IMG/VR virus record: IMGVR_UViG_3300001782_000018
Coordinates: 1 to 21,282 of that record
Length of the DNA: 21,282 nt
Strand: one strand, 5' to 3'
DNA from: a virus
The position numbers were made by a program, and so were the translations under genes. Each line of letters opens with the position of its first letter. The first letter of the stretch is position 1. The notes below the pieces were generated by a model. It was given only the letters and a program-made list of their open reading frames with translations, ran no database searches and was not told where the DNA came from. Below are positions 1,413 through 18,010 of this stretch, piece after piece.

Positions 1413-1940
1413 TCTTCAGCATCTCCACGTCAACCGCCAAGAACGCGAGTTCGAGTTGGACCCTACGCCATGACAGATTGAGAGTTTGCTCAGGTGTGTA
1501 CCCGAACTGTTTAGCGAACGTGTGCACGACGAGGTCTTCATACTCTTCACGCGACATTGCCAATTTGTTCTTGGACTTCTTTTTGAAGAACCTGTTTATG
1601 ACGAAATCTATTCTTTGTCGGTCTGGCTTTCTTCCGATGTAGAGGAGGATTCGCCTCGCAATGGCCCTAAAGGGAACTTGTTGAACTCCGCTATGGCGGC
1701 ATACAGCTTCTCGCCCGTATCCTTGTCAAGCTTCTCTATGTCCTCAAGCTTCATCTTAGGAGACTTCACACCGAAGAAGACCGTGAACGTTCTCAACGAC
1801 CCGCTTCGGAATTTCATCTGACCGTCCCGAGTCACAACGGAAGATTCGTCGAGAATTTTGTTGTGCTCGCCGAAGGTGACCTCCTTTATGGTGAAGCGCT
1901 TTCCGCCAATTTCAACGATTTTGTCTTTCAATGCCGCCAC
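1390..1940 (-). CDS. tail assembly chaperone, -1 frameshift fusion product
   Basis: Predicted programmed -1 frameshift product. Codons 90-91 of the upstream ORF read CCT TTA and, with the preceding C, form the slippery heptamer CCCTTTA (minus 1674-1668). Slipping back one base continues AGG GCC ATT GCG and stays open for 92 codons to TAA at 1392-1390, giving 183 residues (91 + 92). The extension has a basic stretch (RFFKKKSKNKLAMSREEYED) and then an amphipathic helical end. This is the gpG/gpGT arrangement: the short form and the fusion bind the tape measure during tail assembly and are absent from the finished virion. A stand-alone start at the internal ATG (SREEYED...) would need a Shine-Dalgarno site, and none is seen. 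Confidence 0.7.
1608..1940 (-). CDS. tail assembly chaperone, short form
   Basis: 110 residues, acidic at its C-terminus (ESSSTSEESQTDKE). The N-terminus (KDKIVEIGGKRFTIKEVTF) has the 'k.v.igGk.y.lke' look of Siphoviridae tail chaperones. It lies directly after the tail tube gene and before the tape measure, as gpG-type proteins do. The first possible start is GTG 1940, touching the tail tube stop. TTG 1931 may be the true start because AGGTGG sits six bases before it. The tail tube stop UAG and this ORF are in the same frame. It ends at TAG 1610-1608, about 58 bases past the slippery site. Confidence 0.7.
   Translation of the reverse strand: MAALKDKIVEIGGKRFTIKEVTFGEHNKILDESSVVTRDGQMKFRSGSLRTFTVFFGVKSPKMKLEDIEKLDKDTGEKLYAAIAEFNKFPLGPLRGESSSTSEESQTDKE
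1668..1674 (-). other. programmed -1 ribosomal frameshift site
   Basis: Minus-strand heptamer CCCTTTA in the zero-frame phase C CCT TTA is an exact X XXY YYZ slippery sequence (X=C, Y=T, Z=A). It lies at codons 89-91 of the chaperone ORF, where the -1 frame is open for 92 codons. About 10 bases downstream a small stem GAGG-CGAAT-CCTC (minus 1657-1645) could help pausing, but it is weak. The -1 frame downstream shows coherent protein composition. Confidence 0.7.
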
Positions 1941-2885
1941 CTACAGGGTTGTCACGTTTATCGTGGCGAATTCTATCTTGAACTCGAAGTCTAGCAGGGT
2001 GAGTTCCCTTATGGGCTTGTCGCCTTCCGTGATTCTCCCGCCTGTCATCGTTATCAGTCTGCCGCTCGAACCAGCAGGCAACGAGACCGCCGCCGTTCTT
2101 TGTGTATTCGCCAAGAAGTCTTGCAACTCGCTGATTGCCGAGAAGTCTATCTTCCCGGTGATAGCCGCGCTGACTTCACCCTCCTGGAAATCCCTGTACA
2201 AAGTCTTGTCAGCATCGCTGGCACCTCTTTTCACAAGGTTCCTCCGCAGTTCAAGCTGCCACTCCGTTAGCCTGTGGTAGAAGCTGGAGCCGCCCCAAGT
2301 AATATCGCAGTCACTAGCCAAGAGATAATCCGTGTTGGGCTTGTTCTGATGTGTAGCTGTTCCTTGCACATAATTGGTGGTATCAAATGTCGGATTCTGC
2401 ACGTAGAAGTCAACCTCCTGTGTTACCGGTAGGTTTTCCTCAACATTCCCCTTGAGGATTATCGAGTTTACCTTGCACCCTCTGCAAGTCCAGTAGTTGT
2501 ACGTCGGAGTCTGTGAAGCCTCTATCCTAGCGCCAATCGACAGCGATGCTATATGCTTCTCGAGGTCTATCGTAGCACCGGGTACAGACGCGCCCATCGC
2601 ATAGTTGAACACGTCTATCCATTCCCAGGTCGTGCCGTCGCGCGCAAGCAACTCGCTTTCGACCTTAAGCTCCATGAACTTTTTCAGGAGTATCATGTCG
2701 CTCAGTATCTGCCTGCCGAGCCCGACCTTCTTCTTGTATATCGGGTTGAACTTCGGTATGAAGTTGAGTACCTCGCCGCCAGGTCCCCAGTTCCATTGCC
2801 CCGTAGTAGGCAGTTGCCCGAACGTGGTTTCCCTAATCCATCCGATTCTGTCCGCATCGTATCCCCATCTCATGTATTCTGACAT
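1941..2885 (-). CDS. major tail tube protein
   Basis: 314 residues. The N-terminus (MRWGYDADRIGWIRETTFGQ) followed by LPTTGQW matches the '.gy..e.t.G..p' opening of many siphovirus and archaeal tailed-virus tail tube proteins. The rest is beta-rich with a long central sandwich, and the C-terminus (LTLLDFEFKIEFATINVTTL) ends in beta strands. The start ATG 2885 has AAGGAG nine bases upstream. The gene follows the tail terminator candidate and precedes the tail chaperones, the usual order. The 5' leader contains one copy of the twin-hairpin element. It stops at TAG 1943-1941, in frame with the next ORF. Tail tube is the best call from order and N-terminal pattern; no sheath gene is seen, so the tail is probably non-contractile. 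Confidence 0.75.
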   Translation of the reverse strand: MSEYMRWGYDADRIGWIRETTFGQLPTTGQWNWGPGGEVLNFIPKFNPIYKKKVGLGRQILSDMILLKKFMELKVESELLARDGTTWEWIDVFNYAMGASVPGATIDLEKHIASLSIGARIEASQTPTYNYWTCRGCKVNSIILKGNVEENLPVTQEVDFYVQNPTFDTTNYVQGTATHQNKPNTDYLLASDCDITWGGSSFYHRLTEWQLELRRNLVKRGASDADKTLYRDFQEGEVSAAITGKIDFSAISELQDFLANTQRTAAVSLPAGSSGRLITMTGGRITEGDKPIRELTLLDFEFKIEFATINVTTL

Positions 2886-2923
2886 CTTTCATATCTCCTT
2901 GTTTTAGGTTTTTGGATGTTTAG

Positions 2924-2951
2924 CATCGTCCCCGATGGTAACTCATGTTAC
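2924..2951 (-). repeat. twin-hairpin intergenic element, copy B
   Basis: Minus strand: stem GTAAC-ATGA-GTTAC joined without spacer to stem CATCG-GGGA-CGATG, both perfect 5-bp stems with 4-base loops. The second loop is a GNRA tetraloop if transcribed in the minus direction. The first stem base is the G of the upstream gene's UAG stop codon, and the element lies in the leader of the tail tube gene. The same element occurs at 14891-14918; stems are identical and only loop bases differ. Confidence 0.8.
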
Positions 2952-3406
2952 TATGATTCGCCCCTGGAGTATATACAGAGCAACTCCAAGGTGGCCTTTA
3001 TAGTCGGCGTGTCGTCCTCCAAGAGGTCGAAGAACCTCTCCGCCTGGACATAGACGAACCTGATATCTTCAAACATGGTGTCGTTCGCTTCGACTACGTC
3101 ATAGATTTCATCCACGCATCTCTGTAGCTCGTCCCTCATGTCTGAGACATTCTTCTTGGACAAGTTCGAAATCAGTATCATGATATTGACAGGCACGACT
3201 TCCTTGATTATGACTTTTGTCCTTGTCTTCCTGCGCGGATAGCCCGCCAGCTTGGTTGCCTCGATAGACACGGGGTGGTCCACAAACCTCTTCGACAAGT
3301 CCTCGGGCTCGCCGCGCCTTATCGTGACGCGCCCCTTATGTATGAAGCCGTCCCCGTCCCATTTTTCGGAAAGCATTTCCGCCACAGACAACGATGCGTC
3401 CTTCAA
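2951..3406 (-). CDS. putative tail terminator / tail completion protein
   Basis: 151 residues. Position between the head-tail connector gene and the tail tube gene is that of the tail terminator in siphoviruses. The alpha/beta layout fits: an N-terminal helix, a strand region (GFIHKGRVTIRR), a long central helix (SDMRDELQRCVDEIYDVVEA) and a last beta strand (TIKATLELLCIY) as in proteins that form the ring at the tail end. No diagnostic motif is visible. The start is TTG 3406, two bases after the previous stop, probably by translational coupling; GTG 3385 or ATG 3376 would shorten it. It ends UAG UAA, with the UAG giving the first base of the twin-hairpin element. Confidence 0.5.
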   Translation of the reverse strand: MKDASLSVAEMLSEKWDGDGFIHKGRVTIRRGEPEDLSKRFVDHPVSIEATKLAGYPRRKTRTKVIIKEVVPVNIMILISNLSKKNVSDMRDELQRCVDEIYDVVEANDTMFEDIRFVYVQAERFFDLLEDDTPTIKATLELLCIYSRGES

Positions 3407-3407
3407 C

Positions 3408-4253
3408 CTAGGTCATCCCCGTAACACCCAGCGTGTCTCCGAATTTCGCCTTCACGTAATCGTCCATCAAGGCAACGGCCAAAGCGTTGAACTCGGGCGT
3501 CTTCGTCGGTTGCCTATCTGTGGCGTAGTACCCGGCCGCAAACAGCGATGCCGCCCTAACGATGATGTCGGGAACGACGCCCGGAATTTCACCGTAAGGC
3601 TCAATGATTACGTCTATCCTAAAGTCGGCATACCTTAGAGCTTCATACAGCTCTGGCTCATTGTTGAAGTTTGTGTCAGATATCCCTAGATGCAGCTTCA
3701 GCAATGATATTGTTCCGTATGTCACCGGTATGGTCCAAAAGGTATCCATCTTGAACGATGAATAGTCATCGGCTGAACCGAAGCATTCGAAACCGTGCTT
3801 ACCGAGCCTGAAATTTGATGGAAGGTCCTCAGCCTCAGCGACGCTAAAGCCATCTATGTAAGCGTAAACATTGTATACTGCGCCAACCAACACCGACTTG
3901 AGCCTGACGATATAATCGGTATTCATGGCGATGGTCATATTCCTTGTCACAAGATTCGTCCTATCCGTCTCGACATCGCTAGAATTCCTCGTCACCCTGT
4001 CGAGTTTGACGGTGTTGTTAGTTGGGTCCAGGACTAGCTCGACGTAGTATGTGTTTTCCGAACCATCCTTGTACCAGTTCACCAAGACGGCCGCTGTGCC
4101 AGCAAACACTCTCACTGTGACCATGAACTCGTAATTAGTATCGGTCACTTCTCCAGCGACGCTTCTAGCATTAGCTCCACTGGGGACGATGCCCTTTATA
4201 GTCTCGTTAAGGTCCCTAGACCAGGTTCCAGTTAATACTGTGTATATGTCCAT
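3408..4253 (-). CDS. ConA-like lectin domain fused to head-tail connector
   Basis: 281 residues with two apparent domains. Residues 1-175 read as a ConA-like jelly roll of the LamG/DUF1080 type: GTWSRDLN, then NYEFMVTVRVFAG, ENTYYVELVLD, VKLDRV, DYIVRLKSVL, NVYAYIDG and LGKHGFECFG in the expected strand order. Residues 178-275 look like a gp6-type head-tail connector: ISLLKLHLGISDTNFNNEPE, then helices with RYADFRIDVII, IVRAASLFAAGYY and EFNALAVALMDDYVKAKFG. The connector part would sit under the portal; the lectin would then stick out at the neck. The start ATG 4253 overlaps the upstream stop (TAATG). Both assignments are from pattern recognition; the connector call is supported by the following tail terminator and tube genes. 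Confidence 0.6.
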   Translation of the reverse strand: MDIYTVLTGTWSRDLNETIKGIVPSGANARSVAGEVTDTNYEFMVTVRVFAGTAAVLVNWYKDGSENTYYVELVLDPTNNTVKLDRVTRNSSDVETDRTNLVTRNMTIAMNTDYIVRLKSVLVGAVYNVYAYIDGFSVAEAEDLPSNFRLGKHGFECFGSADDYSSFKMDTFWTIPVTYGTISLLKLHLGISDTNFNNEPELYEALRYADFRIDVIIEPYGEIPGVVPDIIVRAASLFAAGYYATDRQPTKTPEFNALAVALMDDYVKAKFGDTLGVTGMT

Positions 4254-4594
4254 TATGGTGCAGGCCTCGTTATATCCACTTTGATTTCTATTGTCCCCTC
4301 ATACAAAGTTTCAATCTTGGCGTCTGTCTTTGTTATCTGTATATCAAAGTAAAATATCTGCGCCGCCTTCAATGAATTGGTATCAGCAGCTGCTATATCG
4401 AATTGAGCTACGCCATTCGTCGGGTCTGTAAGTGACGCTGTCTTCTGCAAAAAGTTTGCCTCAGCGCCCCTGTGTGTCTTCCATGTCATAAGAATCACAC
4501 AGCCAGATATGTCCTCAACTGCCAGCGTCGCCCTGTTCAGCACCGTTATCTCATAGGACTTGTCGTCGCCTCTGTGCATGCTCAAGTCAGCCAT
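4253..4594 (-). CDS. BppU-like Ig-fold virion protein
   Basis: 113 residues. It matches the N-terminal immunoglobulin-like domain of phage BppU-type baseplate/receptor-binding proteins: HRGDDKSYEITVL at the start, DISGCVILMTWKTH, then LTDPTNGVAQFDIAAADTN, FYFDIQITKTD and a final EGTIEIKVDITRPAP. In phages this domain carries receptor-binding modules or links them to the virion. Here it is a complete small protein with no extra domain, overlapping the repeat protein upstream by 8 bases and the lectin-connector gene downstream by one base. Tight coupling suggests that the three products are assembled together. GGTGGC stands before the ATG. Confidence 0.6.
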   Translation of the reverse strand: MADLSMHRGDDKSYEITVLNRATLAVEDISGCVILMTWKTHRGAEANFLQKTASLTDPTNGVAQFDIAAADTNSLKAAQIFYFDIQITKTDAKIETLYEGTIEIKVDITRPAP

Positions 4595-6041
4595 TGAACA
4601 CAGCCACCCAAGAGTCTTTTTCTCTCATCGTTGATTTCATTCCTTTGTCAGTTACTTTCGTGACTATGAGTGATATCGCCCCGCCCTTGTTTATCAAGAT
4701 AATATCGAGGCTTGCGGCGGCGTCGGCTATCAGTCTAGACAGGTCCATTGATACCTCGTCGGCGCCAGCACCGCTGTCCGATATGACATAAGTCAGAGGA
4801 ATCGCTGCAACTATGTCTGCACCGAGGCCCGCGTCTGATATGTTCACAAGCGAGCCCGAAATTACCGAAATCGCGCCAACACCGCTACCGACATCATCTA
4901 TGACCACAGTTTCGCCGATGCCCCAAATCGTGACAACTTCGCTACCGACTACTGAATCAAGAACCTGTATCGACCCAGCAGCGGTTATGATATCAGCGGC
5001 TGAGCCGACATCGTCAACAACTTTTGTCGTCAAACTCAGCACATTAACGCTATCGACACCGAGCGACAGCTCCGTTTGCAATATCTGTTTCAAGAATGTG
5101 ATAATATCTAAACCTTGAGCCGTATCTGATACAACCGACGCCTCAGCTACCAACGTTATACCGTCTACTCCAGACCCAGCATCTTGGATGAACTGCCCGG
5201 TTGGCACCACGTCAATGCTCGATATCCCGCCCCCGGCATCCGACACTGACACCGGTTTCAGAAGCACCATGACATCAGAGCCGGTTCCAAAGTCGACTAT
5301 CGGCGCTAGCAGAGCTTCGAACGATATGGCGTCTGTCCCAACCCCAGCATCGTCGGCATTGACGAAGTTGATTATGATTAGGTCTATAGATTCCACGCTA
5401 CCGCATGCGTCAATTGTTACAATCATCGTATTCGGAAACGGAACCGCGTCCACACCAACAACGTTCTCGTAGATGTTAACAGCACCAACGGTTATCACTC
5501 GAAGTATGGAATCCGCGCCTTCAGCCAATTCTATGAACGATATCGATTTGTCGAGCGATATTGCAGACAACCCGCTGGACGTATCTATCATAACAATCTG
5601 CTTGGCGAACCCCACGGAATCGACCCCGACAAGAGACTCGCTCACAGGTATGGACTTCAAGAAACTAAGAATATCCAAAGACGTGGATGACTCTTCCACA
5701 CTCACCGGTTTGTCCATAGCGATGGCCTCTGAACCCTCCCCGTTGTCGCTTACAGACAGCAAGGTGAAGTCCATCTGCCTCGAACCCGGGGAACCTGAAA
5801 TATCCACCGTTGTTTCATGAGTCACACCGCTATATGTAACCTTTATCGAATCGCTGTCCGCGTAATCTGTGGTGAACTTGGACTTGTCACCCAAGTTAGC
5901 AGCATAGATTCCGCCCATCTGAGTCGTGAAGTTCGACTCTTCGCCCTTGGTATCATTCCGCACAGTCACAGTCGCGCCTACCTGGACCTCGCCTTGGTTC
6001 TTGACTACCCCCCAAATCACATACGGTGTCTGTATTGTCAT
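4587..6041 (-). CDS. repeat-rich virion surface protein
   Basis: 484 residues. Residues 8-95 resemble a carboxypeptidase-regulatory/Cna B-like Ig domain (WGVVKNQGEVQVGATVTVRN). Residues 95-455 consist of about 19 degenerate repeats of 18-20 residues with consensus like 'V.D.G.G.D.I', for example VSDAGGGISSIDV, QDAGSGVDGITLV and DDVGSGVGAISVI. A non-repeat cap (TDKGMKSTMREKDSWVAVFNG) ends the protein. Regular Asp/Gly turns with alternating hydrophobics suggest a beta-solenoid or stacked-strand fibre, perhaps calcium-binding through the Asp residues. No enzyme motif is seen. It starts at ATG 6041 after GAGGTGGCGCC and follows the large surface protein by nine bases. It is likely a spike, fibre or adhesin. 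Confidence 0.6.
   Translation of the reverse strand: MTIQTPYVIWGVVKNQGEVQVGATVTVRNDTKGEESNFTTQMGGIYAANLGDKSKFTTDYADSDSIKVTYSGVTHETTVDISGSPGSRQMDFTLLSVSDNGEGSEAIAMDKPVSVEESSTSLDILSFLKSIPVSESLVGVDSVGFAKQIVMIDTSSGLSAISLDKSISFIELAEGADSILRVITVGAVNIYENVVGVDAVPFPNTMIVTIDACGSVESIDLIIINFVNADDAGVGTDAISFEALLAPIVDFGTGSDVMVLLKPVSVSDAGGGISSIDVVPTGQFIQDAGSGVDGITLVAEASVVSDTAQGLDIITFLKQILQTELSLGVDSVNVLSLTTKVVDDVGSAADIITAAGSIQVLDSVVGSEVVTIWGIGETVVIDDVGSGVGAISVISGSLVNISDAGLGADIVAAIPLTYVISDSGAGADEVSMDLSRLIADAAASLDIILINKGGAISLIVTKVTDKGMKSTMREKDSWVAVFNG
4677..5759 (-). repeat. about 19 tandem degenerate 18-20-residue coding repeats
   Basis: Visible in translation as recurrent '(V/I)xDxGxGxDxI' blocks across most of the repeat protein. 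The DNA copies are diverged, so the repeat is an old protein-level repeat and not a recent tandem expansion. Boundaries are approximate. Confidence 0.75.
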
Positions 6042-6050
6042 GGCGCCACC

Positions 6051-8942
6051 TCATGGGTAAACATGATACCAAGTCCCAGCCGCGTCACAGAATATGAACA
6101 GCCAGTCATCAGTGTCCGATATTGTCACAGACGCATCGTGAGCATAGCCGTTCACGAATAGACCCTGCTGGACCTCGGCATCACTGTAATACACTATCCA
6201 GTCGAACTGTATACTATCAAGGTACAAACTCTGATTCACCTGACCGAGGGTTTTCCCAACATCTGCTGTGTCCGGATGAATCTTATTGTTGCCTTGCGAC
6301 AAGGCCGTCGCGCCGATGGTGTATCTGTACGTGTAGACCTTGATATAAGGCAACTCAGTCTGCTGCCAAGCGTACATTATCGTCCCAGAATAGGACACCG
6401 GTGTGCAGATGTTGGGGTCCTCGGAAAGTCTGGCATTATCCGGGTCTAGAATATTGAACAATCTCAACCTGGGCTCCCAGAGACCGCTAGAGTTCCTGTT
6501 CCTGGACCAGCCCGAACCTTCAATCTCCTCAACCCAGCTGCAAGTTATCTCTTCCCTCGACTCGTCATAGCACAATACAGGGAATCCACCCCAAATGCCA
6601 CCACTTACCCCAGCGTATATGTCAGCCGCGACTACCTCTTCCTTGATGGTCCATGTCCCCGTCGCATAATCCTTATATGAGTATCTTATGGTCTCTACAT
6701 TGTAGTTGCCCGTCGTGTACGCCGCATGTATGTTCCCCTGCGGGTCTATCGTCGTCGAGAAGAACCTGTAGTTGACCGGCACTGTGTCTGAAATATTGAC
6801 TCTGCCGCCCAACGTCTGCGTAGTCACGTTCCAAACTCTCTCCGTGAAGTTCTTCCCGCTAGGCCAACTTACGTACTGAACAGACACGCTCCCGTCCGGA
6901 AACACCTGCAACTGCGAACCAGCCGTATACGTCTCAATCGTCACAGGATATCCAGACGCGGTTGTCCAGGTTCCGTCAATGGTCGACGAATGATAGAGCC
7001 ACTGGTGGCCATTCGCCGTCTGCGAAAAGTTCCCGACGAGAATGAACGGATATCCTGTCGCATTGGCAATTACGCCTTCCGTCGCCCCAAACTCGTCAGC
7101 ATCGGGGAACACGTGGACAGTCTGCCAAGCGGCTCTCCATGTTATGTCGCCGTCGCTGTGGTCGAAGTCGCCCATCCTGTACATGACATCATTGTCAGCA
7201 CCCTCGGTCTCCCTGCATGTCGTAACGTACACGACCCAAACGTCGCCGCCAGCAGACTTGTTGTACCATAACCAGGCGTAAGCATAATCCATCCTCTGGA
7301 TATTGTCCCTGACAGCCTCCTTGTATACCCAGTTCCCGCCGGCTCCGTCAAGGTTGAAATACTCAAGCATGTGCGAGCCATTGCACATGAACAAGACGTA
7401 GCTGCCGTTCGTCTCAAACATCTTCCTGCCGTAGCTGTGCCTAATCGCGCGCTCGACGCTCGAATTCAGCCCCGTTGTCTCAACGTAGGTCGGGTCGAAG
7501 AAGTACAGCGGCTGCACTAAAGTCTGGTTCTCGTTCGTGACGCTCCACCTGCCGGAGGTCGTAGCGTTCACCCAGTACTTGAATACAAAGGATGAGTAGC
7601 TTGCGCACGTCGTGAACGAGAAGTTCCCCCAACCCTCAACGGCACTGATGGTCACACTCTGATTCGCCGCCCATGAACCGCTAGCGTTCTGACTGAAGAG
7701 TATCTTGTGGACAGTGTCCCCAGCAGGCGCCCTGAACTTCCAGCACACCTCCAATGTGTCTTGGGCCACAGGGAACTCGGGATTGAATATGTCCCTGTAG
7801 GTCCAGTTGGAATTCCACAGCGATATGAAGCATTGGCGGATATTCAATGAATAGAAACCGCTCTCGTGACTTTGGAACTTGACGGCGACGTTACATGTCG
7901 AAGCCCCCCACGCGATATAGTCGCTGATGTCAATGCGGAACCATTTGAACCCATCAGTCATTTCGTAATCGCCCAAATCATACACATCTGTCGTATTGTA
8001 TATCCACGGAGTCCATGTGCCGCCTTGAGTCGGCAACTCCTTCCAAGCCTCAACCTCAAGGAACGCCTGCGCGAATGTGGCATTGCTCTTCTCAAAAAAG
8101 AGCCATGAAAAATTCTGGTTATCAGCCAGCGAAGTTACGTATCCATCCTTTATGTCAAGGTACGGGTTATCGCCATCAGTGCTCCATCCCGTCTCTGTCG
8201 AATTGTAATCCACCGGTAACAGAACATAGTCATCTGGCGGAGCCTCATATTCAACCTCGACATATATTTGAGTACACCTAGCATAGGCCGTGACCTCCGT
8301 GGGTTTCAACACGTGTATGGACAAAAGGTCCACGCCAATCTGCAAGTCAGCAATCTCCGCTTGAGTCCAAGGCTGATTGGTGTTAGGATTATCCGCATAC
8401 TCCTTGGAATACAGGGTATATGTCGTGGTGAGATAATTGGTTGTGCCCCTGTACTCAGTCGCATGCGTGTATATTATGGTCCTACCAGCGGGACTACCGC
8501 CAGACACATCTTTCTTGCACCTGACGTACACAGTTATCTTAATGATTTCATCGGTCTCGCAAAAGTCTATATCCGGTATGTTGTACAGGTCATAGTCCCA
8601 ATCGTTCGAGTTCGGGTCCTCATCATATACGTACGTCGTATCACCATCACCGCTCCCGGTATCATCGACCTTCTCCCAGTTGTAAGTAGCCTCCGGATAA
8701 TCATATAGCCCCGTATGCACGCCATAACCCGCGGGCCTCAATGTATCCATTGTGGCTGCGACTGGGAACTCGACCTCCATCCTCGTCAATATGACAGCCG
8801 TCTGCAAGGCTCCAATCAAAAGGAGCAGAGCGACTATCGCGGCTTTAACCTTGCTCTCTATCCTGCCCCAATATATCGCCGCCAGCAGGACAAGCACCAG
8901 GCTCAAAAATATCGCTAATACAAAAATGAGGAAAGGAATCAT
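6051..8942 (-). CDS. large membrane-anchored, sequon-rich surface protein
   Basis: 963 residues from ATG 8942, chosen because GGAGG lies seven bases upstream and the ATG overlaps the upstream stop (ATGA); an upstream start at 8993 would add 17 residues inside the previous gene. Residues 2-24 and 34-52 are hydrophobic helices. The rest is beta-rich: about 60-235 and 240-385 resemble jelly-roll domains, 385-478 an Ig-like domain, 485-880 a sialidase/BNR-like propeller with repeated W/Y strands, and 900-963 a C-terminal module. I count 21 N-x-S/T sequons, dense from residue 247 on. It has Cys at several sites but no catalytic motif I can name. It is probably an adhesin or a virus-encoded cell-surface protein. 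The two-helix anchor is unusual for a tailed virion. Confidence 0.6.
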   Translation of the reverse strand: MIPFLIFVLAIFLSLVLVLLAAIYWGRIESKVKAAIVALLLLIGALQTAVILTRMEVEFPVAATMDTLRPAGYGVHTGLYDYPEATYNWEKVDDTGSGDGDTTYVYDEDPNSNDWDYDLYNIPDIDFCETDEIIKITVYVRCKKDVSGGSPAGRTIIYTHATEYRGTTNYLTTTYTLYSKEYADNPNTNQPWTQAEIADLQIGVDLLSIHVLKPTEVTAYARCTQIYVEVEYEAPPDDYVLLPVDYNSTETGWSTDGDNPYLDIKDGYVTSLADNQNFSWLFFEKSNATFAQAFLEVEAWKELPTQGGTWTPWIYNTTDVYDLGDYEMTDGFKWFRIDISDYIAWGASTCNVAVKFQSHESGFYSLNIRQCFISLWNSNWTYRDIFNPEFPVAQDTLEVCWKFRAPAGDTVHKILFSQNASGSWAANQSVTISAVEGWGNFSFTTCASYSSFVFKYWVNATTSGRWSVTNENQTLVQPLYFFDPTYVETTGLNSSVERAIRHSYGRKMFETNGSYVLFMCNGSHMLEYFNLDGAGGNWVYKEAVRDNIQRMDYAYAWLWYNKSAGGDVWVVYVTTCRETEGADNDVMYRMGDFDHSDGDITWRAAWQTVHVFPDADEFGATEGVIANATGYPFILVGNFSQTANGHQWLYHSSTIDGTWTTASGYPVTIETYTAGSQLQVFPDGSVSVQYVSWPSGKNFTERVWNVTTQTLGGRVNISDTVPVNYRFFSTTIDPQGNIHAAYTTGNYNVETIRYSYKDYATGTWTIKEEVVAADIYAGVSGGIWGGFPVLCYDESREEITCSWVEEIEGSGWSRNRNSSGLWEPRLRLFNILDPDNARLSEDPNICTPVSYSGTIMYAWQQTELPYIKVYTYRYTIGATALSQGNNKIHPDTADVGKTLGQVNQSLYLDSIQFDWIVYYSDAEVQQGLFVNGYAHDASVTISDTDDWLFIFCDAAGTWYHVYP

Positions 8943-9559
8943 TCGACCGCCTCCGTTTCCGCTTCGTTTACTAGGTCCTCGAATCCCCAACATGCGTCAT
9001 TGTTCCACATGAACCAGATGTGCTTAAGACCGTTGGCAGACCAGTCCAGAGTCATGAACTTAGAGCCATCATGGAATATCACAATCATGTGGCCGACGTT
9101 GCTTGCCGATAGCCCAACAGCCAAGAATATTCTATGCCCAGGATATCCCATCGCGGACAAGATGTTCGCCAGAAGTATCGCGCCATCATCGCAGTCGCCT
9201 CTCAAGGTCGTTAGCACTTCTGGCGGGAGCGCCCAGTAATCAGAGATTCCGAATGTATCACTGTCTTTAGCGTAAGTCATGGTGCATTTAACAAAATTTA
9301 GTGCGTCAAGATAGTTCTTAAGAAACTTCGCATTGTCGGCGACAAGCGATTTCAGAGTATTCGGGTTCATGAAGAACCCTCTGACGTCCATCATATACAC
9401 CTCGCCGCTAGGCAGAGTGCGAACTGACACAGACAGGTCCGACCTCACCATTCCCGGAAACTCCCTTTCAAGGTCTACATAAAGCGACTGTCGTTCCTTC
9501 TGCTCGAACTCATCGCAAACTTGCTTGGAAACTTCCTTTTTGAACCAGCCAAAGCACAT
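8939..9559 (-). CDS. transglutaminase-like cysteine protease
   Basis: 206 residues. The active-site pattern of the transglutaminase-like superfamily is clear: LRGDCDDGAILLANILSAMG places Cys123 at the start of the helix, GHMIVIFHDG gives His157, and FMTLDWS gives Asp172. These proteins cleave or remodel amide bonds; several tailed viruses carry one near structural genes, with substrate unknown. The N-terminal 100 residues are helical and charged with no signal peptide, so it probably acts inside the cell or in the virion. The start ATG 9559 follows GGAGGAGGCAAAAAT, a strong site. It overlaps the large surface protein gene by four bases, which hints that the surface protein could be its substrate. 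Confidence 0.75.
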   Translation of the reverse strand: MCFGWFKKEVSKQVCDEFEQKERQSLYVDLEREFPGMVRSDLSVSVRTLPSGEVYMMDVRGFFMNPNTLKSLVADNAKFLKNYLDALNFVKCTMTYAKDSDTFGISDYWALPPEVLTTLRGDCDDGAILLANILSAMGYPGHRIFLAVGLSASNVGHMIVIFHDGSKFMTLDWSANGLKHIWFMWNNDACWGFEDLVNEAETEAVE

Positions 9560-9580
9560 ATTTTTGCCTCCTCCATGTAG

Positions 9581-9600
9581 GGAGAAAAAAGAGGGGTGGT
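9581..9600 (-). terminator. T-tract, possible partial terminator
   Basis: Minus strand CACCCCTCTTTTTTCTCC right after the stop of the virion-type gene: a pyrimidine-rich tract with T6, like archaeal T-run terminators. It has no hairpin, and it lies only about 25 bases before the next start, so readthrough is likely. Confidence 0.35.
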
Positions 9601-9601
9601 T

Positions 9602-10156
9602 TTAGCTAAAGGTTATGTTGAGCGTCAAAGTCCAAGTTCCGCCGCTTTTGGTACCGCTTGCCTGAACCTTCCTGTTTAGGTTCTGCTGAGCCGCTGCCCC
9701 ATTGTCCACGGTGAACTCGTTCCAAGCGAAGTTACCCTCGGCATCTGTGAACTCAGAGCGCCAAGTCAACGTCTGCGCTGACCTTGATGGGTAACTACCA
9801 GAAATCATCGCTTTGAATGTCTGGTTGCTTCCCAGAAGACCGGTCTGTGCCTCACTCTCATCAGCGGCGCTGTCACCAACACCTAGCCTAGCGTTGGTAT
9901 TGTCCCATTTCGTTATCGTTGCTAAGTCGCAAATCAGGTCTTCGAACGCTTGGATACCTTCATTGAGCATCATGTTACCGAAGAACCGCTCGATTTCGTA
10001 AGGTACTTCACCGACAGCCATAGCTTCAGCATAAGTTTTTGACTTGAACTTCTCAATGACCCATTCGACCTTCGCTTGCTTGAATCGCTCCATGATTGTG
10101 CATTCCTTCTCTACGCAGAGGGAATCTTCACCGCGACTCAAATCGCTGTTTTCCAT
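9602..10156 (-). CDS. putative virion structural protein
   Basis: 184 residues. After a charged N-terminus, the protein resembles a recurrent phage/archaeal-virus structural module: FGNMMLNEGIQAFEDLI, NTNARLGVGDS, a beta-rich centre, then EFTDAEGNFAWNEFTVDNG and a final LNRKVQASGTKSGGTWTLTL strand set. The 'nt.igvGdg...f.W.E.gv.N....lnR.v.....K....Wtl' pattern is common in predicted tail-fibre or decoration proteins, but its exact role is not settled. The start ATG 10156 has GGAG eight bases upstream and follows the small ORF stop by one base. It is the first clear virion gene after the central promoter region. Confidence 0.6.
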   Translation of the reverse strand: MENSDLSRGEDSLCVEKECTIMERFKQAKVEWVIEKFKSKTYAEAMAVGEVPYEIERFFGNMMLNEGIQAFEDLICDLATITKWDNTNARLGVGDSAADESEAQTGLLGSNQTFKAMISGSYPSRSAQTLTWRSEFTDAEGNFAWNEFTVDNGAAAQQNLNRKVQASGTKSGGTWTLTLNITFS

Positions 10157-10157
10157 G

Positions 10158-10322
10158 TCACCATCTCCTAGCTTCGATAGCTACGCCTTCTAGAGCTTGC
10201 ACCTCAACCTTCGTGAGGTTGCGGAAGGTTCTGCCGCCACGTGACTTCAAGGTGTATGTCCCATCGTCCTCTTGAAAGACGGTCCAATGCGGATTCCTAA
10301 GGATTTCCTTTGGCGTTGCAAT
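10158..10322 (-). CDS. small ORF with non-standard start, unknown function
   Basis: A 54-codon frame with protein-like composition: TPKEILRNPHWTVFQEDDG, then YTLKSRGGRTFRNLTKVEVQ, ending VAIEARRW and TGA 10160-10158, one base before the next ATG. There is no ATG, GTG or TTG in frame upstream before a stop. A very strong AAGGAGGAG lies just before ATT 10322, and ACG 10316 is about eight bases from GGAGG, so initiation at ATT or ACG is possible. The coding call rests on the strong ribosome site, the tight junction with the next gene and the residue pattern. It could instead be a decayed start. Function unknown. Confidence 0.45.
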   Translation of the reverse strand: MATPKEILRNPHWTVFQEDDGTYTLKSRGGRTFRNLTKVEVQALEGVAIEARRW

Positions 10323-10360
10323 CTCCTCCTTCTTTTCTATATCTTTTATACTCGCAGGGC

Positions 10361-10370
10361 ATTTATATAG
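10361..10370 (-). promoter_or_regulatory. TATA box for the surface/tail gene block
   Basis: Minus strand CTATATAAAT, an archaeal TATA-like box in the gap between the winged-helix gene and the small ORF. A start about 25 bases downstream (near 10340) would give a short leader carrying AAGGAGGAG. A second TATA-like string (TATAAAAG) lies at about 10343-10350. Confidence 0.5.
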
Positions 10371-10381
10371 TTTCCTCGATA

Positions 10382-10398
10382 CGGATTTTATAAATCCG
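10382..10398 (-). promoter_or_regulatory. palindrome containing a TATA box, possible operator
   Basis: CGGATTTATAAAATCCG on the minus strand is a 7-bp-arm inverted repeat with a 3-base centre, 8 bases after the winged-helix stop. It contains CGGATTTATAAA, which recurs exactly at 15811-15822. It may be a promoter, an operator for the adjacent winged-helix protein, or a 3' hairpin. Confidence 0.5.
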
Positions 10399-10406
10399 CT
10401 TAGGTA

Positions 10407-10652
10407 TCAGAGCACCTCCAGTAACGCGAGGCCCTTCGCGGTGATGCTATACAATCCCCTGCTCTTGCGTTTCACCCAGCCTCGCTCCAGGGTTGTCTTC
10501 AGGGTGAAATAAAAAACCATCGGAGAACAGTTTGTCTCAGTAACCACTCTCTTCTCCAATGGCGTCCACTTGATATCCTTGCCTTTCAAGGAACCCAATA
10601 TGCACCGAATGATTTTGCACCGCCTTGCGAATATCGCCTTGTCGTCAGTCAT
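10407..10652 (-). CDS. winged helix-turn-helix DNA-binding protein
   Basis: 81 residues. The helices AIFARRCKIIRCILGSL and WTPLEKRVVTE, then the recognition region PMVFYFTLKTTLERGWVKRK, then the wing RGLYSITAKGLALLEVL form the standard small wHTH: 'L...L...Gwv.r...G.Y.iT.kG...L'. Likely a transcription regulator of viral genes. The start ATG 10652 overlaps the upstream zinc-ribbon stop (ATGA), with GAGGTGG seven bases before it. A palindrome with a TATA box lies immediately downstream and is a candidate operator, which would let the protein control the surface/tail block. That link is inference. Confidence 0.7.
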   Translation of the reverse strand: MTDDKAIFARRCKIIRCILGSLKGKDIKWTPLEKRVVTETNCSPMVFYFTLKTTLERGWVKRKSRGLYSITAKGLALLEVL

Positions 10653-10897
10653 TCAAGCTCCACCTCGACAGGCATCAACTTGCTCTTATATTTGCAAGAC
10701 GCGCAATACTTGACAACGTCCAAATCTCCCCTTTTGTAACCGCGCACCGAGAGGTCAAGGTCAAAGTCGGACATCTCATTTCCGCAATATGGGCACCGCT
10801 TCCAGCAGTCACAGTAAACGACAGACGCAGGCCTCAGCCTAGAGTAGGTCTTGCCGCATTTGCCGCATCTGCCCGTAGCTTCGCCGACTTTGGACAT
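10649..10897 (-). CDS. zinc-ribbon protein with eight cysteines
   Basis: 82 residues, eight Cys in pairs: C11/C14 (CGKC), C29/C31 (CDC), C35/C38 (CPYC) and C65/C68 (CASC), enough for two zinc sites. Between them lie basic residues and short strands, as in small zinc-ribbon nucleic-acid-binding or adaptor proteins. No enzymatic motif. GAGG stands seven bases before ATG 10897. It lies 12 bases after thyX and overlaps the winged-helix gene, so the three are one transcription unit. It may act in regulation with the winged-helix protein, but this is only context. Confidence 0.6.
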   Translation of the reverse strand: MSKVGEATGRCGKCGKTYSRLRPASVVYCDCWKRCPYCGNEMSDFDLDLSVRGYKRGDLDVVKYCASCKYKSKLMPVEVELE

Positions 10898-10909
10898 TGT
10901 CTTTCCTCG

Positions 10910-11701
10910 CTATGGTTTTTTGGACGTCGCTGACCTTAAGGCACCAAACTCCCTTACATCATAATCGCGGGTACCGCAGGTATTGCGCCCTTCCGGGCAG
11001 AATCCAAGCTGCCAACATCTGGGTCCAGCCGCCGCGAATAAAGTGGGAGATATCTCCTTACACATCGCCAGCATCTTCCAGGCAAGCGTGTGAATCTCCC
11101 ACGTATTCCTAGCGCAGCATCTGAGCCCGAAGAAGTTATAGAGGCTCCTAGCGTTTACCGTCATAACTAGTCTTGCAGCCACAGCGTTTGGCAATACGCT
11201 CCTAGCCTCGGAATGGGGATACCCGGATTCTATGAGGCCTCTATACTTCATGAAGGCTTCCTTGCAAGCCTCCGTGAACATAGTCAATTGGTTTTTATCA
11301 AGCTTGTCCGGCCTGACAACCATGAGCTTGTCGTATGAAATGTAATGCTGTGATTCCTGTGTATAGCTCGCCATTCTATGACGAACTATTTGGTGCGTGC
11401 ATGCGCGAGATATGTTCCTGATGTCAAACGTGAACACGGCATGCTCCCAAACAGAACCGTGCCCGCATTCGACGACGGTCTGCACCATATTCAAGGCTCT
11501 CCCCAGCGGGACGTCCTTGACAGTTTCCGCGACATGACCTTTGTATGTGGCTCTAGCAGCAAAGGCTATAAGCTTCTCTATGTCCTTTGGGTAGGAGACG
11601 AGCCGCACGTCCATTTGCGGCGCCTCCCTCACCTCAATCACATCACGCTCATCCTCCTTGACCGCGAGCCATACTACGTTTTCAAACTTCTTGATTTCCA
11701 T
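10910..11701 (-). CDS. thyX: flavin-dependent thymidylate synthase ThyX
   Basis: 263 residues. Makes dTMP from dUMP with methylene-tetrahydrofolate, FAD and NADPH, supporting viral DNA synthesis. The signature region is THQIVRHRMASYTQESQHY, with RHR at 107-109 and Ser112/Ser117; the usual SxR end of the motif is S-Q-H here (His119). Other conserved parts: GHGSVWEH, EARSVLPNA, VNARSLYNFFGLR and a C-terminal Cys cluster (RCWQLGFCPEGRNTC) common in some archaeal and clostridial ThyX. The first 30 residues extend beyond the usual start. ATG 11701 was chosen because AAGGTG lies eight bases upstream; a start at 11902 would overlap the zinc-ribbon gene in another frame and adds 67 unrelated residues. 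A T8 tract lies upstream. Confidence 0.92.
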   Translation of the reverse strand: MEIKKFENVVWLAVKEDERDVIEVREAPQMDVRLVSYPKDIEKLIAFAARATYKGHVAETVKDVPLGRALNMVQTVVECGHGSVWEHAVFTFDIRNISRACTHQIVRHRMASYTQESQHYISYDKLMVVRPDKLDKNQLTMFTEACKEAFMKYRGLIESGYPHSEARSVLPNAVAARLVMTVNARSLYNFFGLRCCARNTWEIHTLAWKMLAMCKEISPTLFAAAGPRCWQLGFCPEGRNTCGTRDYDVREFGALRSATSKKP

Positions 11702-11732
11702 GACATTTTCACCTTGATACGAAACTTTTGGA

Positions 11733-11750
11733 ACAAAAAAAAGGGGGAAG
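11733..11750 (-). terminator. T8 tract after the capsid gene block
   Basis: Minus strand CTTCCCCCTTTTTTTTGT, 16 bases after the stop of the zinc-ribbon gene. Archaeal transcription terminates at T-runs, so this is a likely end for part of the head-gene transcripts. No TATA box is visible between it and thyX, so thyX probably depends on readthrough. Confidence 0.5.
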
Positions 11751-11765
11751 AGATGGAGAACGCTT

Positions 11766-12017
11766 CTAAGTGGTGAAGGCTCTGCCACACTTGTTGCAGT
11801 GATACTTCGGGACCTCGTGGACATCGTCCAGAGACACCATTCGGACGAACACAGTGTCATGGGACTCGCATAGTGTGCAAGGCGGCCTCTTAAGCACGGC
11901 ACGCGGCTTTGAAGATTCCAGGGTCTTGCGGTTATCTTTTGGCTTTTGTGCTCTTGCCTTTGGTTTTTTAGCTGCTTGCATGCCTGCCGCGAAGCCTTTA
12001 TCCTCGGACTTTTCCAT
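11766..12017 (-). CDS. small zinc-ribbon protein with basic N-terminus
   Basis: 83 residues from ATG 12017. The N-terminal half is Lys/Ala/Pro-rich (AAKKPKARAQKPKDNRKTLE) and probably disordered or nucleic-acid-binding. The C-terminal half has two CxxC knuckles (CTLC at 47-50 and CNKC at 74-77), a one-zinc ribbon. AGGGGTG lies six bases before ATG 12017, which is why it is preferred; TTG 12035, overlapping the capsid gene stop, would add six residues. It follows the capsid gene and precedes a T8 tract. It could be packaged with DNA or act on transcription; function unknown. Confidence 0.6.
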   Translation of the reverse strand: MEKSEDKGFAAGMQAAKKPKARAQKPKDNRKTLESSKPRAVLKRPPCTLCESHDTVFVRMVSLDDVHEVPKYHCNKCGRAFTT

Positions 12018-12031
12018 GCTATGCACCCCTA

Positions 12032-13054
12032 TCAAGTTCCCTTAGCCACAGCTGTCGTTCTCAATGTTGTTAGTCCGTATCTTTCACTGCCTATTGCCCC
12101 GTAGAGCAATTCTTTGGTATCTTCGTATGGCTTGGTGAGTATGTCCCGTCTGAGACACAGAGCCGCGGCGTAGTCAGTGTCAATCATCAGTTTGGTTCCC
12201 GATGTGATGAGTGTGGACCACACGACCTTGAAGCCAAGGTATGATGTGCCCAATATTCCACGGGTGATGTCTATCAGGTTGCCGAAGTACATAGCGCTCA
12301 AGAACTTCTCATCGGTGAAGACTCCCTCAAGCTCCGCCGGATTCAGAGCAAGCACTTTCCCGTGGAAGTTTGCCTGTTCCAAAATAGTCCAAAGTTTGAC
12401 GCAATCAGCCCATGCGAAGCTAGCGCCGTCACCCGTTGTCTGAATGGCACCACCAGCCAAGCTGCCCGCAGCGATACCATTGTAGAGGTTGTAGATGTCT
12501 GTCGTCTCTTCCTCGCCAATGGCTCTGCCTATTTCGGCAACTTGCCTTTGAAGTACCGGCCAAGATGTGTCTTCAAGGAAGGATTGGCTCCACTCCTCGG
12601 AAGCCGCCCACTCGACGTCGATGTTACAGTCCTGCTTCGAATACTTCTCGCCTGTCGACCACGGTCTTGTTTCACCGACGCGCCACGCTTTGCCCTTCTT
12701 CGCCAAGATGAATCTGACAAGAGGTTTTGTCGTAGGGAGTACGGCAATCATCTCCCGTCCAATCAAGGCTGGAACGGCCGCGTTGATTACGGTCGAGTGA
12801 ACCATTCCCAGTGCCTGCGAGACATCTGAAAGCTGCGCCTCCTTCATAACAAATTTGTAGAACGGGTTCGCTTTCGCCTGTTCCACAACTTTGTCACTTC
12901 CTCGCTGTCCTCCCTCTTCGGGGTCCGCCTCGACAGCCTCCAGCAGGTTCCTCGAGAATTGCTTCACGGGGTATTGACCAGGCCTGAGGTTCGATTTGGA
13001 TTCCTCGATGAGCTCGAGGACTTTCATTGCTTCTTTGCTCAGCATGTCTATCAC
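12032..13054 (-). CDS. HK97-fold major capsid protein
   Basis: 340 residues. It is placed after the protease and decoration genes and has the HK97-type organisation: a charged helical N-terminal arm (about 1-60), AALIGREMIAVLPTTKPLVRF like the N-arm/E-loop junction, GETRPWSTGEKYSKQ in the E-loop region, IGEEETTDIYNLYNG in the P-domain, and the C-terminal segment KPYEDTKELLYGAIGSERYG. It forms the icosahedral shell. The start is GTG 13054, overlapping the decoration gene stop (GTGA); ATG 13045 is three codons later and gives the same protein. Length is normal for the family. A short zinc-ribbon gene overlaps or abuts its end. Confidence 0.85.
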   Translation of the reverse strand: MIDMLSKEAMKVLELIEESKSNLRPGQYPVKQFSRNLLEAVEADPEEGGQRGSDKVVEQAKANPFYKFVMKEAQLSDVSQALGMVHSTVINAAVPALIGREMIAVLPTTKPLVRFILAKKGKAWRVGETRPWSTGEKYSKQDCNIDVEWAASEEWSQSFLEDTSWPVLQRQVAEIGRAIGEEETTDIYNLYNGIAAGSLAGGAIQTTGDGASFAWADCVKLWTILEQANFHGKVLALNPAELEGVFTDEKFLSAMYFGNLIDITRGILGTSYLGFKVVWSTLITSGTKLMIDTDYAAALCLRRDILTKPYEDTKELLYGAIGSERYGLTTLRTTAVAKGT

Positions 13055-13485
13055 GTTCCGACGCCTTCGATGCTCGGGCAGACGAATACCAAGATTTCGT
13101 CGTCGGCTTCACCAGCAGACATGTGAGCCTGCGCTCCGCTGAAGGACACGCTAGCCGCCAGAGCTTTGATGCATCTGCCCTCGGCGTCGCTCATCAGAGC
13201 GTCACCAGCGGCGAATGCGCCTCCAGCGTACATCTTCACGTATCCCATCTTGAGCACAGGTATCATGTCGTCAGTGTCACCATCCTTGAGGGCAACGCCA
13301 AAGATTCTCTCGCTAGCGTCGCACTCGTGAACCAGAGGCATCTGGTTCTCGCCGGCTGTCACAGTTACGAAACGACCCTTCCGCACATCATCCTCGTCGC
13401 ACTTGCATGTGACCTTGTATGCTATGCCCATCGAACTCGCTACTTCACCAATATCCAATTCGGGGAATAGGTCTTCTGCTGCCAT
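13051..13485 (-). CDS. capsid decoration protein, DUF2190-like
   Basis: 144 residues, rich in Ala, Gly and Asp with short beta strands. RKGRFVTVTAGENQM, SERIFGVALKDGD, VLKMGYVKMYAGGAF and AAGDALMSDAEGRCIKA match the beta-barrel pattern of phage head decoration proteins ('v.aGd.l.sd..Gr...a'). It would sit on the capsid surface as a stabiliser. Position between protease and capsid genes fits. ATG 13485 has GGAG nine bases upstream. The stop overlaps the capsid start by four bases, so the two are translated together. Confidence 0.7.
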   Translation of the reverse strand: MAAEDLFPELDIGEVASSMGIAYKVTCKCDEDDVRKGRFVTVTAGENQMPLVHECDASERIFGVALKDGDTDDMIPVLKMGYVKMYAGGAFAAGDALMSDAEGRCIKALAASVSFSGAQAHMSAGEADDEILVFVCPSIEGVGT

Positions 13486-13521
13486 TTGTCATTTCTCCAA
13501 GTTTCTATCCTTTCAGGGTTC

Positions 13522-13536
13522 GCCTACTCAGTAGGC
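13522..13536 (-). repeat. perfect hairpin at the protease stop codon
   Basis: GCCTACTGAGTAGGC on the minus strand: 6-bp stem with a 3-base loop. Its first base is the G of the protease UAG stop, and it lies 37 bases before the decoration gene. The other intergenic hairpins in this window also begin at the G of a UAG, but this one has a different sequence. Confidence 0.6.
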
Positions 13537-14858
13537 TACTTACTGCTTTCCTCTATGTTGAAGAGCTCAAACACTCCAGAGAAGTCAACGGGCGGGATAG
13601 CTTCTACTAGGCTCCTATACTGTCTGGCTCTTTCCTGTAGCACTGAACCAGTGAAGTGCCCGATTTTGCGTATATCGCCCGGATTCAGAACTTCGAGAAC
13701 ATTCTTCCGCGAGACTAAATCCTTGCATTCTTCCATCAGTTCGCTGAAGATTTTCTCCGCTTTCTGTAGCTGCTCGCGTTGAACACGGATGGTAGCTTCC
13801 GCCTCAACCAGGTCGTCTTCCATGCCCTTGATTCTCGTCAACAACTGCGGCTGCAAGTCAAGGAACTGCTTGGCAGCTTTCAAAGATTCGACATCTTCCA
13901 CAAGGGTGGCTAACAACGCTTTGGTATCAACCTCAGTGGCGTCCTTTGCGGCATCTTCAGCCTTCTTCTCGATTTCCAACTCATCCATCACCTTCTGTGC
14001 TTTCTCCATAGGTCCGTCTAAGAGAATCGCCTCATTTCCAACAGGCAGCTTGAACTTCTCGATGATAGCCGGAAGAGGCATTTCCTCGTAGGAAGCCTCA
14101 AGCGCCTCACTCAGAAATGCGGGCGTTTCCGATATGACTTCGTCGACAAGTCCGAATTCCTTCGCCTCCTCAGCGCTCATCCACACGTCCGTCTTGTGCC
14201 AGATGTCTTCTATGTCTTGGGGAGTCTTCCCGCTTCTCTCGGCGAGAATCTCCTTCAGCATGTCGTTGACCTTCTTAAGCTCTACAGTCTGGTCCTCAAT
14301 GTCAGATGTTTTACCCCATTGGAACGTGCTCACCTCATGGATGAGGAATCGCGTGTGGGGTGTCGCTCGTCTGACAGAGCCGGCTTGTAGCAAGACGGCG
14401 CCCATACTAGCAGCCAAGCCTCTGGCTTCGCAGACTATCGGAATGCCGTTTGTCACCAAGTTCTTTATCGTGTCGTACAAGAGAAGCCCGTCATAGACAT
14501 CTCCACCGACACTGTTCAAGACTATGGTGATTGGCTCCTTGCTCTTGCTAGCCAGGAACTCAAGCTTCTTCGTCGCGCGCTTTGACGTGCTCTGACCGAC
14601 AGAGCCGTGGAACAGCACTGTCCTGTTGCTCAGCAGCGACCACTCCAGCTCCTCGTCCAACGAGAACGACTTGCCGGAAGTCTCTAGCTTAGCCAATTCT
14701 TCACCAGATTTCTTAGCCCCCGGGGTGCCTTCAGTACCCGGATTAGTCTTAGAAGCCTTGGTCTTTTTGTCAGCCGCGATTGTGCCCTTCACGGTCACAG
14801 TCATCTTGTCACCGCTTTCCAACTCTGGTATGTCCTTGCTGTCATTCTCCTTCTTCAT
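13536..14858 (-). CDS. ClpP-like prohead protease with C-terminal scaffold
   Basis: 440 residues. The centre (about 75-250) is a ClpP/S14-type serine protease: EPITIVLNSVGGDVYDGLLL, then EARGLAASMGAVLLQAG with nucleophile Ser151, then PHTRFLIHEVS with His174, and HKTDVWMSAEEAKEFGLVDE with Asp224. The full triad is visible. Residues 285-385 are a charged coiled coil, typical of a fused scaffold, followed by a short C-terminal domain. ClpP-like prohead proteases degrade the scaffold and trim capsid proteins. The N-terminal 60 residues are Lys/Gly/Thr-rich and probably flexible. ATG 14858 has GAGGAG six bases upstream. The leader carries the twin-hairpin element. Confidence 0.88.
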   Translation of the reverse strand: MKKENDSKDIPELESGDKMTVTVKGTIAADKKTKASKTNPGTEGTPGAKKSGEELAKLETSGKSFSLDEELEWSLLSNRTVLFHGSVGQSTSKRATKKLEFLASKSKEPITIVLNSVGGDVYDGLLLYDTIKNLVTNGIPIVCEARGLAASMGAVLLQAGSVRRATPHTRFLIHEVSTFQWGKTSDIEDQTVELKKVNDMLKEILAERSGKTPQDIEDIWHKTDVWMSAEEAKEFGLVDEVISETPAFLSEALEASYEEMPLPAIIEKFKLPVGNEAILLDGPMEKAQKVMDELEIEKKAEDAAKDATEVDTKALLATLVEDVESLKAAKQFLDLQPQLLTRIKGMEDDLVEAEATIRVQREQLQKAEKIFSELMEECKDLVSRKNVLEVLNPGDIRKIGHFTGSVLQERARQYRSLVEAIPPVDFSGVFELFNIEESSK

Positions 14859-14890
14859 CTTTTGCTCCTCATTTCGCTGTAGATTTTTTA

Positions 14891-14918
14891 CATCGTCTCC
14901 GATGGTAACTTACGTTAC
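14891..14918 (-). repeat. twin-hairpin intergenic element, copy A
   Basis: Minus strand: stem GTAAC-GTAA-GTTAC directly joined to stem CATCG-GAGA-CGATG. Both loops are GNRA tetraloops in the transcript. It starts at the G of a second in-frame UAG after the stop of the upstream gene and is followed by an A-rich stretch and the ribosome site of the ClpP-like protease gene. It is the same element as at 2924-2951. Confidence 0.8.
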
Positions 14919-14923
14919 TATAC

Positions 14924-15787
14924 CTACTGGTTTCGCTCCAAGTCCGAGCTGGGCCGGAGAGTATCAAGGAATTCCGCTTGGTACTCCCTCAAGAAAGTTT
15001 TAGTCCCATGCTCAGAAGCCTCCTTCAGGAGCAGCTTCCCGAGCGCCTCAAACAATTCCACTGTCGTCGTCGGGTCTCCGGGTTTCAATGACACCAAGTA
15101 AGACGTCTCAATCCCCCTAAGACCGCGAGGCGCGACACCGTTCATCCGCTCAAGAACCTTCCAATCAAAGTTGACGCTGACATGCTTTATGATTCCGTTC
15201 TCTATGAGATTCACTATGTACGGCGGAGCATACAGAAGCTGCTCAATGTATCCGTCATGCCATCTTGAATCAAGTATCTTGTATGGCGGAGGAATCTTGA
15301 ACCTATGGTCTATGTAAGTCGGTCGCCCCACAAAACTAGCGGCTGAGCCCTCAAGCTCAGGCAGAAGGTAATGCCTCAATGAGGCCCAAGAATCTGGGTG
15401 ATATGCGACCATGGGATGAATGGCTTTGACCTTTATCAACTGCCTAGTAGGCAAGCCATATACAGAGACATCGCCCACCCACTCGAAAGATTCTCTGAAA
15501 TCGGGATGGAATGGCTTAGCGACAATGTCTCCCATGAACGCCTTAGTCAGAAGACCTTTAGCTGTGTTCATCAGTTCATTGATTCCTTCCAAGTTCGAGA
15601 CGAGGGAAGCGACAGCTTCCTTCGAACCTATGCGGCATTGGCCCTTTTTGTGGTTCGCAGCCATGGATATTTCATCGTCGCAACCGTATTTGTTCATGAG
15701 CCGATAATAGTAGTCACTACCGCGCTTCTCGCCGTATTGCTCTATGTGGCTACGCCAAATCTTCTGGAAGTCTTCGTGTTTCGGCAT
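14924..15787 (-). CDS. putative S78-like prohead protease
   Basis: 287 residues. Residues 1-40 (FQKIWRSHIEQYGEKRGSDY, then YYRLMNKYGCDD) are a small helical domain seen at the front of some archaeal-virus head proteins. Residues 120-235 resemble the herpes/S78 prohead protease fold: SFVGRPTYIDHRF with candidate His161, then GIIKHVSVNFDW with candidate Ser204, and SLVSLKPGDPTTTVEL like the strand after the active site. If right, this virus has two maturation proteases side by side. It may instead be a head morphogenesis protein with a relic fold. The start ATG 15787 lies 27 bases after a TATA box, so the mRNA may be leaderless. It ends UAG with a second in-frame UAG two codons on. Confidence 0.55.
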   Translation of the reverse strand: MPKHEDFQKIWRSHIEQYGEKRGSDYYYRLMNKYGCDDEISMAANHKKGQCRIGSKEAVASLVSNLEGINELMNTAKGLLTKAFMGDIVAKPFHPDFRESFEWVGDVSVYGLPTRQLIKVKAIHPMVAYHPDSWASLRHYLLPELEGSAASFVGRPTYIDHRFKIPPPYKILDSRWHDGYIEQLLYAPPYIVNLIENGIIKHVSVNFDWKVLERMNGVAPRGLRGIETSYLVSLKPGDPTTTVELFEALGKLLLKEASEHGTKTFLREYQAEFLDTLRPSSDLERNQ

Positions 15788-15810: not shown

Positions 15811-15822
15811 TTTATAAATCCG
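15811..15822 (-). promoter_or_regulatory. TATA/BRE promoter for head genes
   Basis: CGGATTTATAAA on the minus strand, identical to the string at 10387-10398. The TATA centre is about 27 bases from ATG 15787, the distance expected for a leaderless archaeal transcript. Confidence 0.6.
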
Positions 15823-17943: not shown

Positions 17944-18010
17944 CCTATGAGAAACCGGGTGATAGCAATGCCCAAAATTTAGTAAGATTGAACAGCCACT
18001 CATTCTTAAT

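Follow-up and report, generated by a model that had tools for sequence, protein, structure and literature searches.

The late module of this virus contains a small repeated element, a pair of abutting hairpins found in two copies about which the unusual point is that a block has been copied with every stem base kept, while loops and flanks have changed. The repeat is real, but small and limited to two copies. The window analyzed here is the whole 21,282-base virus record, and both copies lie on its minus strand, ahead of the tail tube gene and the prohead protease gene. The reading that we favor, at a likelihood just short of even, is that the copies are intercistronic RNA elements, predicted from the sequence to uncouple or protect parts of the late message in what is probably an archaeal tailed virus.

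Sequence and Extent of the Repeat

Each copy is 28 nt long and consists of two 5-4-5 hairpins (stem-loop-stem) without a spacer between them. Copy A (2924..2951, minus strand) reads GTAAC-ATGA-GTTAC / CATCG-GGGA-CGATG and copy B (14891..14918, minus strand) reads GTAAC-GTAA-GTTAC / CATCG-GAGA-CGATG. A preliminary description of the window had given these sequences and coordinates (2951-2924 and 14918-14891 on the minus strand), and they proved exact. It was equally accurate on the stems, with 20 of 20 bases identical between the copies, and on an alignment of 31 nt (ATA plus the 28), in which the three differences fall in loops only. When the alignment is extended to 33 nt, the two bases that follow the second stem differ as well. 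Three of the four loops are indeed GNRA loops on the transcript strand, ATGA being the exception, and on the opposite strand, none of the four is.

The similarity extends over 40 nt (2915..2954 in copy A and 14882..14921 in copy B, both on the minus strand), of which 34 match. This is the strongest direct repeat in the record, and no direct repeat of such a score was seen in 300 dinucleotide shuffles (0/300). When up to three mismatches are allowed, the full twin pattern has two occurrences in the window, against none in 100 dinucleotide shuffles. If any sequence is accepted, a zero-gap 5-4-5 twin also turns up in shuffled windows, once in 60 of them. The form alone is thus only mildly unusual, and it is the repeat that carries the significance, the two copies not being independent samples of the form. 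The six changes in the 40 nt miss all 20 stem bases (p about 0.01), and the three changes within the 28 nt are confined to loops (p about 0.017).

Such a repeat could also result from a leader segment that was copied between the two sites by recombination or gene conversion and kept for its ribosome-binding leader, the twin-hairpin form being incidental. The frequency at which chance twins arise in shuffled windows is compatible with this, as is the similarity running past the hairpins, where the leaders may align down to the ATG; in copy B, moreover, the UAG of the element is not needed as a stop, as though it had been carried along. Copying of this kind would lead to even change, whereas the flanks diverged and the 20 stem bases did not, and a third gap of the module holds an unrelated hairpin at the same place. 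We consider this origin unlikely.

Placement in the Late Module

The minus-strand late module is tightly packed; most genes overlap and real gaps are few. The order is portal-like gene, small genes, 287-aa gene, protease, decoration protein, major capsid protein and ThyX. Tail and other genes follow, then the tail tube, a gene resembling a tail assembly chaperone and the beginning of a tape-measure-like protein (gene order and reading are the only basis for naming the portal, the chaperone and the tape measure). Copy A lies in a 65-nt gap between a 151-aa gene of no family (2951..3406, minus strand), whose UAG stop is the start of the element, and the tail tube protein gene (1941..2885, minus strand; Pfam Phage_tube_2, E 5e-8). 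Copy B, also in a 65-nt gap, is located between the 287-aa gene (14924..15787, minus strand) and the gene of the ClpP-type prohead (head maturation) protease (13536..14858, minus strand; phrog_94, E 3e-45). The cassette behind copy B continues with the decoration protein gene (13051-13485, minus strand) and, next to it, the major capsid protein gene (12032-13054, minus strand). The gene context had thus been correctly assigned.

Two further features were seen in the gene map. At 1413-1607 (minus strand), between the tail tube and the tape-measure-side genes, a second frame is open beyond the stop of a 110-aa gene (1608-1940); judged from the sequence, a tail assembly chaperone is probably made here by programmed frameshifting. 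Two small genes in succession carry, at their starts or close by, a direct repeat of 30 nt (19525-19554 and 19736-19765) whose copies are 87% identical.

Both copies start at the G of a UAG, as had been described, and this UAG is the upstream stop in copy A but not in copy B. There, the upstream gene actually ends at a UAG located 6 nt earlier (14926-14924), and the hairpin starts at a second UAG in the same frame. The distance from the upstream stop to the hairpin is 0 nt in copy A and 6 nt in copy B, and in both copies UAG is directly followed by an in-frame UAA. Both elements end well before the ribosome-binding site of the downstream gene, with an A-rich leader following, and the tail-tube and protease genes each have their own ribosome-binding site and ATG.

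Because the hairpin begins on a stop codon, translational recoding was considered, either as stop-codon readthrough or as bypassing of the T4 gene 60 type. The genes that flank copy B form one polypeptide in a related virus, which is in line with this idea. The tandem UAG-UAA of both copies, the 65-nt gap that puts the downstream gene in another frame and the separate ribosome-binding sites all speak against it. Recoding is scarcely credible on these grounds and was rejected. A leader peptide in copy A (ATG AGT TAC ... TAA) was also rejected, since it is not kept in copy B, where the start codon is missing. The same holds for an intrinsic (bacterial) terminator: an A-rich sequence follows the hairpins, without a T run, and the element is absent from the terminator scan.

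A single hairpin, GCCTAC-TGA-GTAGGC (13522..13536, minus strand), is present in the 50-nt gap between the protease and decoration-protein genes of the same operon. It has 6 bp and a UGA loop, starts at the G of the UAG stop of the protease gene and is unrelated in sequence to the twin hairpins. The true gaps of the module are those of copy A (65 nt), copy B (65 nt), the decoration protein (50 nt) and a BTLCP-like gene (42 nt), and two longer ones. A hairpin starts 0-6 nt from the stop in three of these six (p about 0.001, or about 0.013 when copies A and B count once, both values having been framed after the data were seen).

Virus Type and Transcription Context

The ThyX protein is closest to Sulfolobales virus ThyX proteins (about 42%). 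For the integrase, the top score was obtained with the archaeal XerA model, yet it stays below the cut-off of that model. Clusters of TATA-like boxes (TTTATAA, TATATAA) are located in the gaps near 10.36-10.39, 15.81-15.86 and 17.93-18.02 kb. Taken together, these features suggest that the record is probably that of an archaeal tailed virus. Among the ANME-1 tailed viruses, there is a known group with ThyX (PMC9894754), cited here for comparison, without any claim of kinship with the present virus.

The gap regions contain palindromes of their own. At 10379-10395 (minus strand), a TATA-like box lies within a 17-bp palindrome, CGGATTTATAAAATCCG. From this region, CGGATTTATAAA recurs near 15811-15822 (minus strand), which suggests a shared promoter motif. 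An imperfect inverted repeat with 26-nt arms (81%) and TATA-like boxes is found at 17925-18029, flanked on one side by the start of the portal-like gene and on the other by the integrase gene.

In the gaps of copies A and B, no clear TATA-like box was found at the right distance; there is a weak TATATA about 25 nt upstream of copy A and nothing comparable at copy B. Since TATA-like boxes are present in three other gaps, the two elements look internal to polycistronic late messages, and both appear to lie inside longer transcripts rather than at clear promoters.

This bears on the main rival of an RNA element, which is a serious one, namely a DNA control site. The two adjacent 14-bp dyads might form a double operator, or a virus-specific late promoter element, through which a regulator, of the virus or of the host, would switch both late cassettes jointly. 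A dyad-binding protein would be expected to keep the half-sites identical and to leave the centers free; each copy belongs to the leader of a structural cassette, the similarity covers 40 bp and so runs past the hairpins, and the palindrome around the TATA-like box at 10395-10379 is a DNA dyad at a likely promoter of this very virus. The half-sites of the two dyads in each copy, GTAAC and CATCG, differ, however, so that one homodimer would not bind both dyads alike. Neither the same half-site in each dyad nor a promoter in register was found, as neither gap has a clear TATA-like box and there is only the weak TATATA upstream of copy A, and the GNRA bias of the loops is seen on the transcript strand. 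A DNA site is less likely than an RNA element, though to be taken seriously.

Search for Further Copies and Relatives

The pattern with exact stems has no copy elsewhere in 2.9 million viral contigs, and none in 84,980 species genomes. When loops of 3-6 nt were allowed, the viral contigs gave one sequence, in two near-identical contigs and inside a 93-aa ORF, which was judged a chance match; the virus that carries it is unrelated, with T7-like structural genes (by reading). A covariance model of both copies, the check proposed in the preliminary description, recovers copies A and B from 322 kb of DNA, and beyond these only the same chance match. Across the window, the full model gives nothing above noise beyond copies A and B. 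BLAST of the leaders against phages and plasmids returned short chance matches only. No Rfam covariance model matched the elements; a single match below threshold (E 2.8), at another place in the window, is attributed to chance.

Single-protein patterns of the capsid, the whole protease, the portal, the integrase and ThyX revealed no relatives. With a conserved fragment of the protease as query, one true relative was found, the 27.6-kb contig L005, and a capsid alignment search led to this contig again and to nothing further. It shares the order portal, 137-aa protein, homologue of the 287-aa gene, protease, decoration protein and capsid, at 28-56% identity, and its homologue of the portal-like protein heads the same head module. 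A tail tube match was not found in this contig. The relative, record G001 (L030 plus L031), has QueE-, QueD- and QueC-like genes at about 12.9-15.8 kb, as judged by sequence reading only; genes of these types belong to the preQ0/archaeosine pathway, as in viruses with modified DNA.

At L005 8966-11029, the homologues of the 287-aa gene and of the ClpP-type protease form a single 687-aa reading frame. Through this fusion, the gap of copy B and its element are absent from the relative, rather than broken, and the element model found nothing above noise on L005. As no copies are present in the collections searched or in L005, the finding stays an observation in one genome.

The copies are palindromic, intergenic, repeated and in the same orientation, and might for this reason represent a small mobile or replication-related repeat (a REP/MITE-like insertion, an origin or a packaging signal) that came to lie in intergenic gaps by chance. 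There are two copies only, and neither the viral contigs nor the species genomes hold further ones; the flanks differ, with no target-site duplication in sight, and the genes examined include no transposase. Such an origin is very improbable.

Folding and Proposed Role in the Message

Both hairpins are present in the minimum-energy and centroid folds of leaders of 103-115 nt. The 28-mers have folding energies of -8.5 and -9.3 kcal/mol (z -2.5 and -3.3); for the whole leaders, the advantage over shuffles is only mild (z -1.0 and -1.5). Selection on structure, as first proposed, is borne out in part: a stem-constrained repeat with GNRA loops is present in two leaders, and compensatory changes are missing, none being found among the two copies. 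As their stems are identical, they cannot show covariation, and a protein that recognizes DNA dyads predicts the same pattern.

An intercistronic RNA element would act between the upstream stop codon and the A-rich leader with the ribosome-binding site of the virion cassette. The two stems are predicted to fold side by side in the message and, if stacked on each other, could give a 10-bp rod with a tetraloop at either end. After a ribosome has left the stop codon, the element would fold and set the upstream cistron apart from the downstream one. The folded element might then block ribosome drift as well as exonucleases, and it probably marks or protects an mRNA end produced by processing in the A-rich linker. 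In this way, the tail-tube segment and the protease/decoration/capsid segment could be kept or translated at levels unlike those of their neighbors. In the 50-nt gap, a single unrelated hairpin may solve the same problem. The mode of action would be like that of the stop-proximal REP hairpins of bacterial operons. A more far-reaching version is that the copies represent a new class of RNA in archaeal tailed viruses, with twin hairpins that stack coaxially and abut a stop codon, on which a specific processing nuclease or RNA-binding protein would act to set the ratios of the virion proteins made from a single long message; this we regard as quite improbable.

To our knowledge, the tuning of head and tail protein amounts from polycistronic messages in archaeal tailed viruses is largely unmapped. 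At present, the twin hairpins are an orphan feature of one genome, with an inferred function. If the proposed role is true, they would provide a compact, testable case of intercistronic post-transcriptional control in an archaeal virus, and the hairpins could serve as a tag for locating such sites elsewhere.

Comparison with Known Systems

Twin dyad operators of prokaryotic repressors consist of adjacent palindromes with conserved half-sites and free centers, and the twin hairpins share all of these features. Unlike in those operators, the half-sites of the two dyads differ here, and there is no recognizable promoter. Phage translational operators likewise place a short hairpin, whose loop is defined, some 30-40 nt ahead of a start codon. 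In the T4 operator, which overlaps the ribosome-binding site, the loop bases are important, whereas here the loops vary and the stems are kept.

That no element of this form had been described, as was stated at first, is too strong, as paired or single stop-proximal extragenic palindromes of the REP type are a known kind. REP elements of bacterial operons and their paired forms are likewise intergenic palindromes, often close behind a stop codon (PMC12306157), and both of the present copies are intergenic and near a stop codon. REPs have long been proposed to protect mRNA segments (PMC12306157), as suggested here for the twin hairpins. Unlike REPs, the twin hairpins join, without a spacer, two short stems that differ from each other and end in tetraloops, and they occur in a virus in two copies only. 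REPs are many-copy elements, whereas two copies are found in this record and none in the other collections, and no partner of the RAYT/Y1-type transposase kind was seen among the proteins scanned, which are part of the ORFs of a record that is itself a fragment. In bacteria, ribosomes are reported to stall at REPs located at most 15 nt from a stop codon, with translation being reduced (PMC12306157). By analogy, we infer that the twin hairpins act like such stop-proximal REP hairpins, yet they are not filed as REP.
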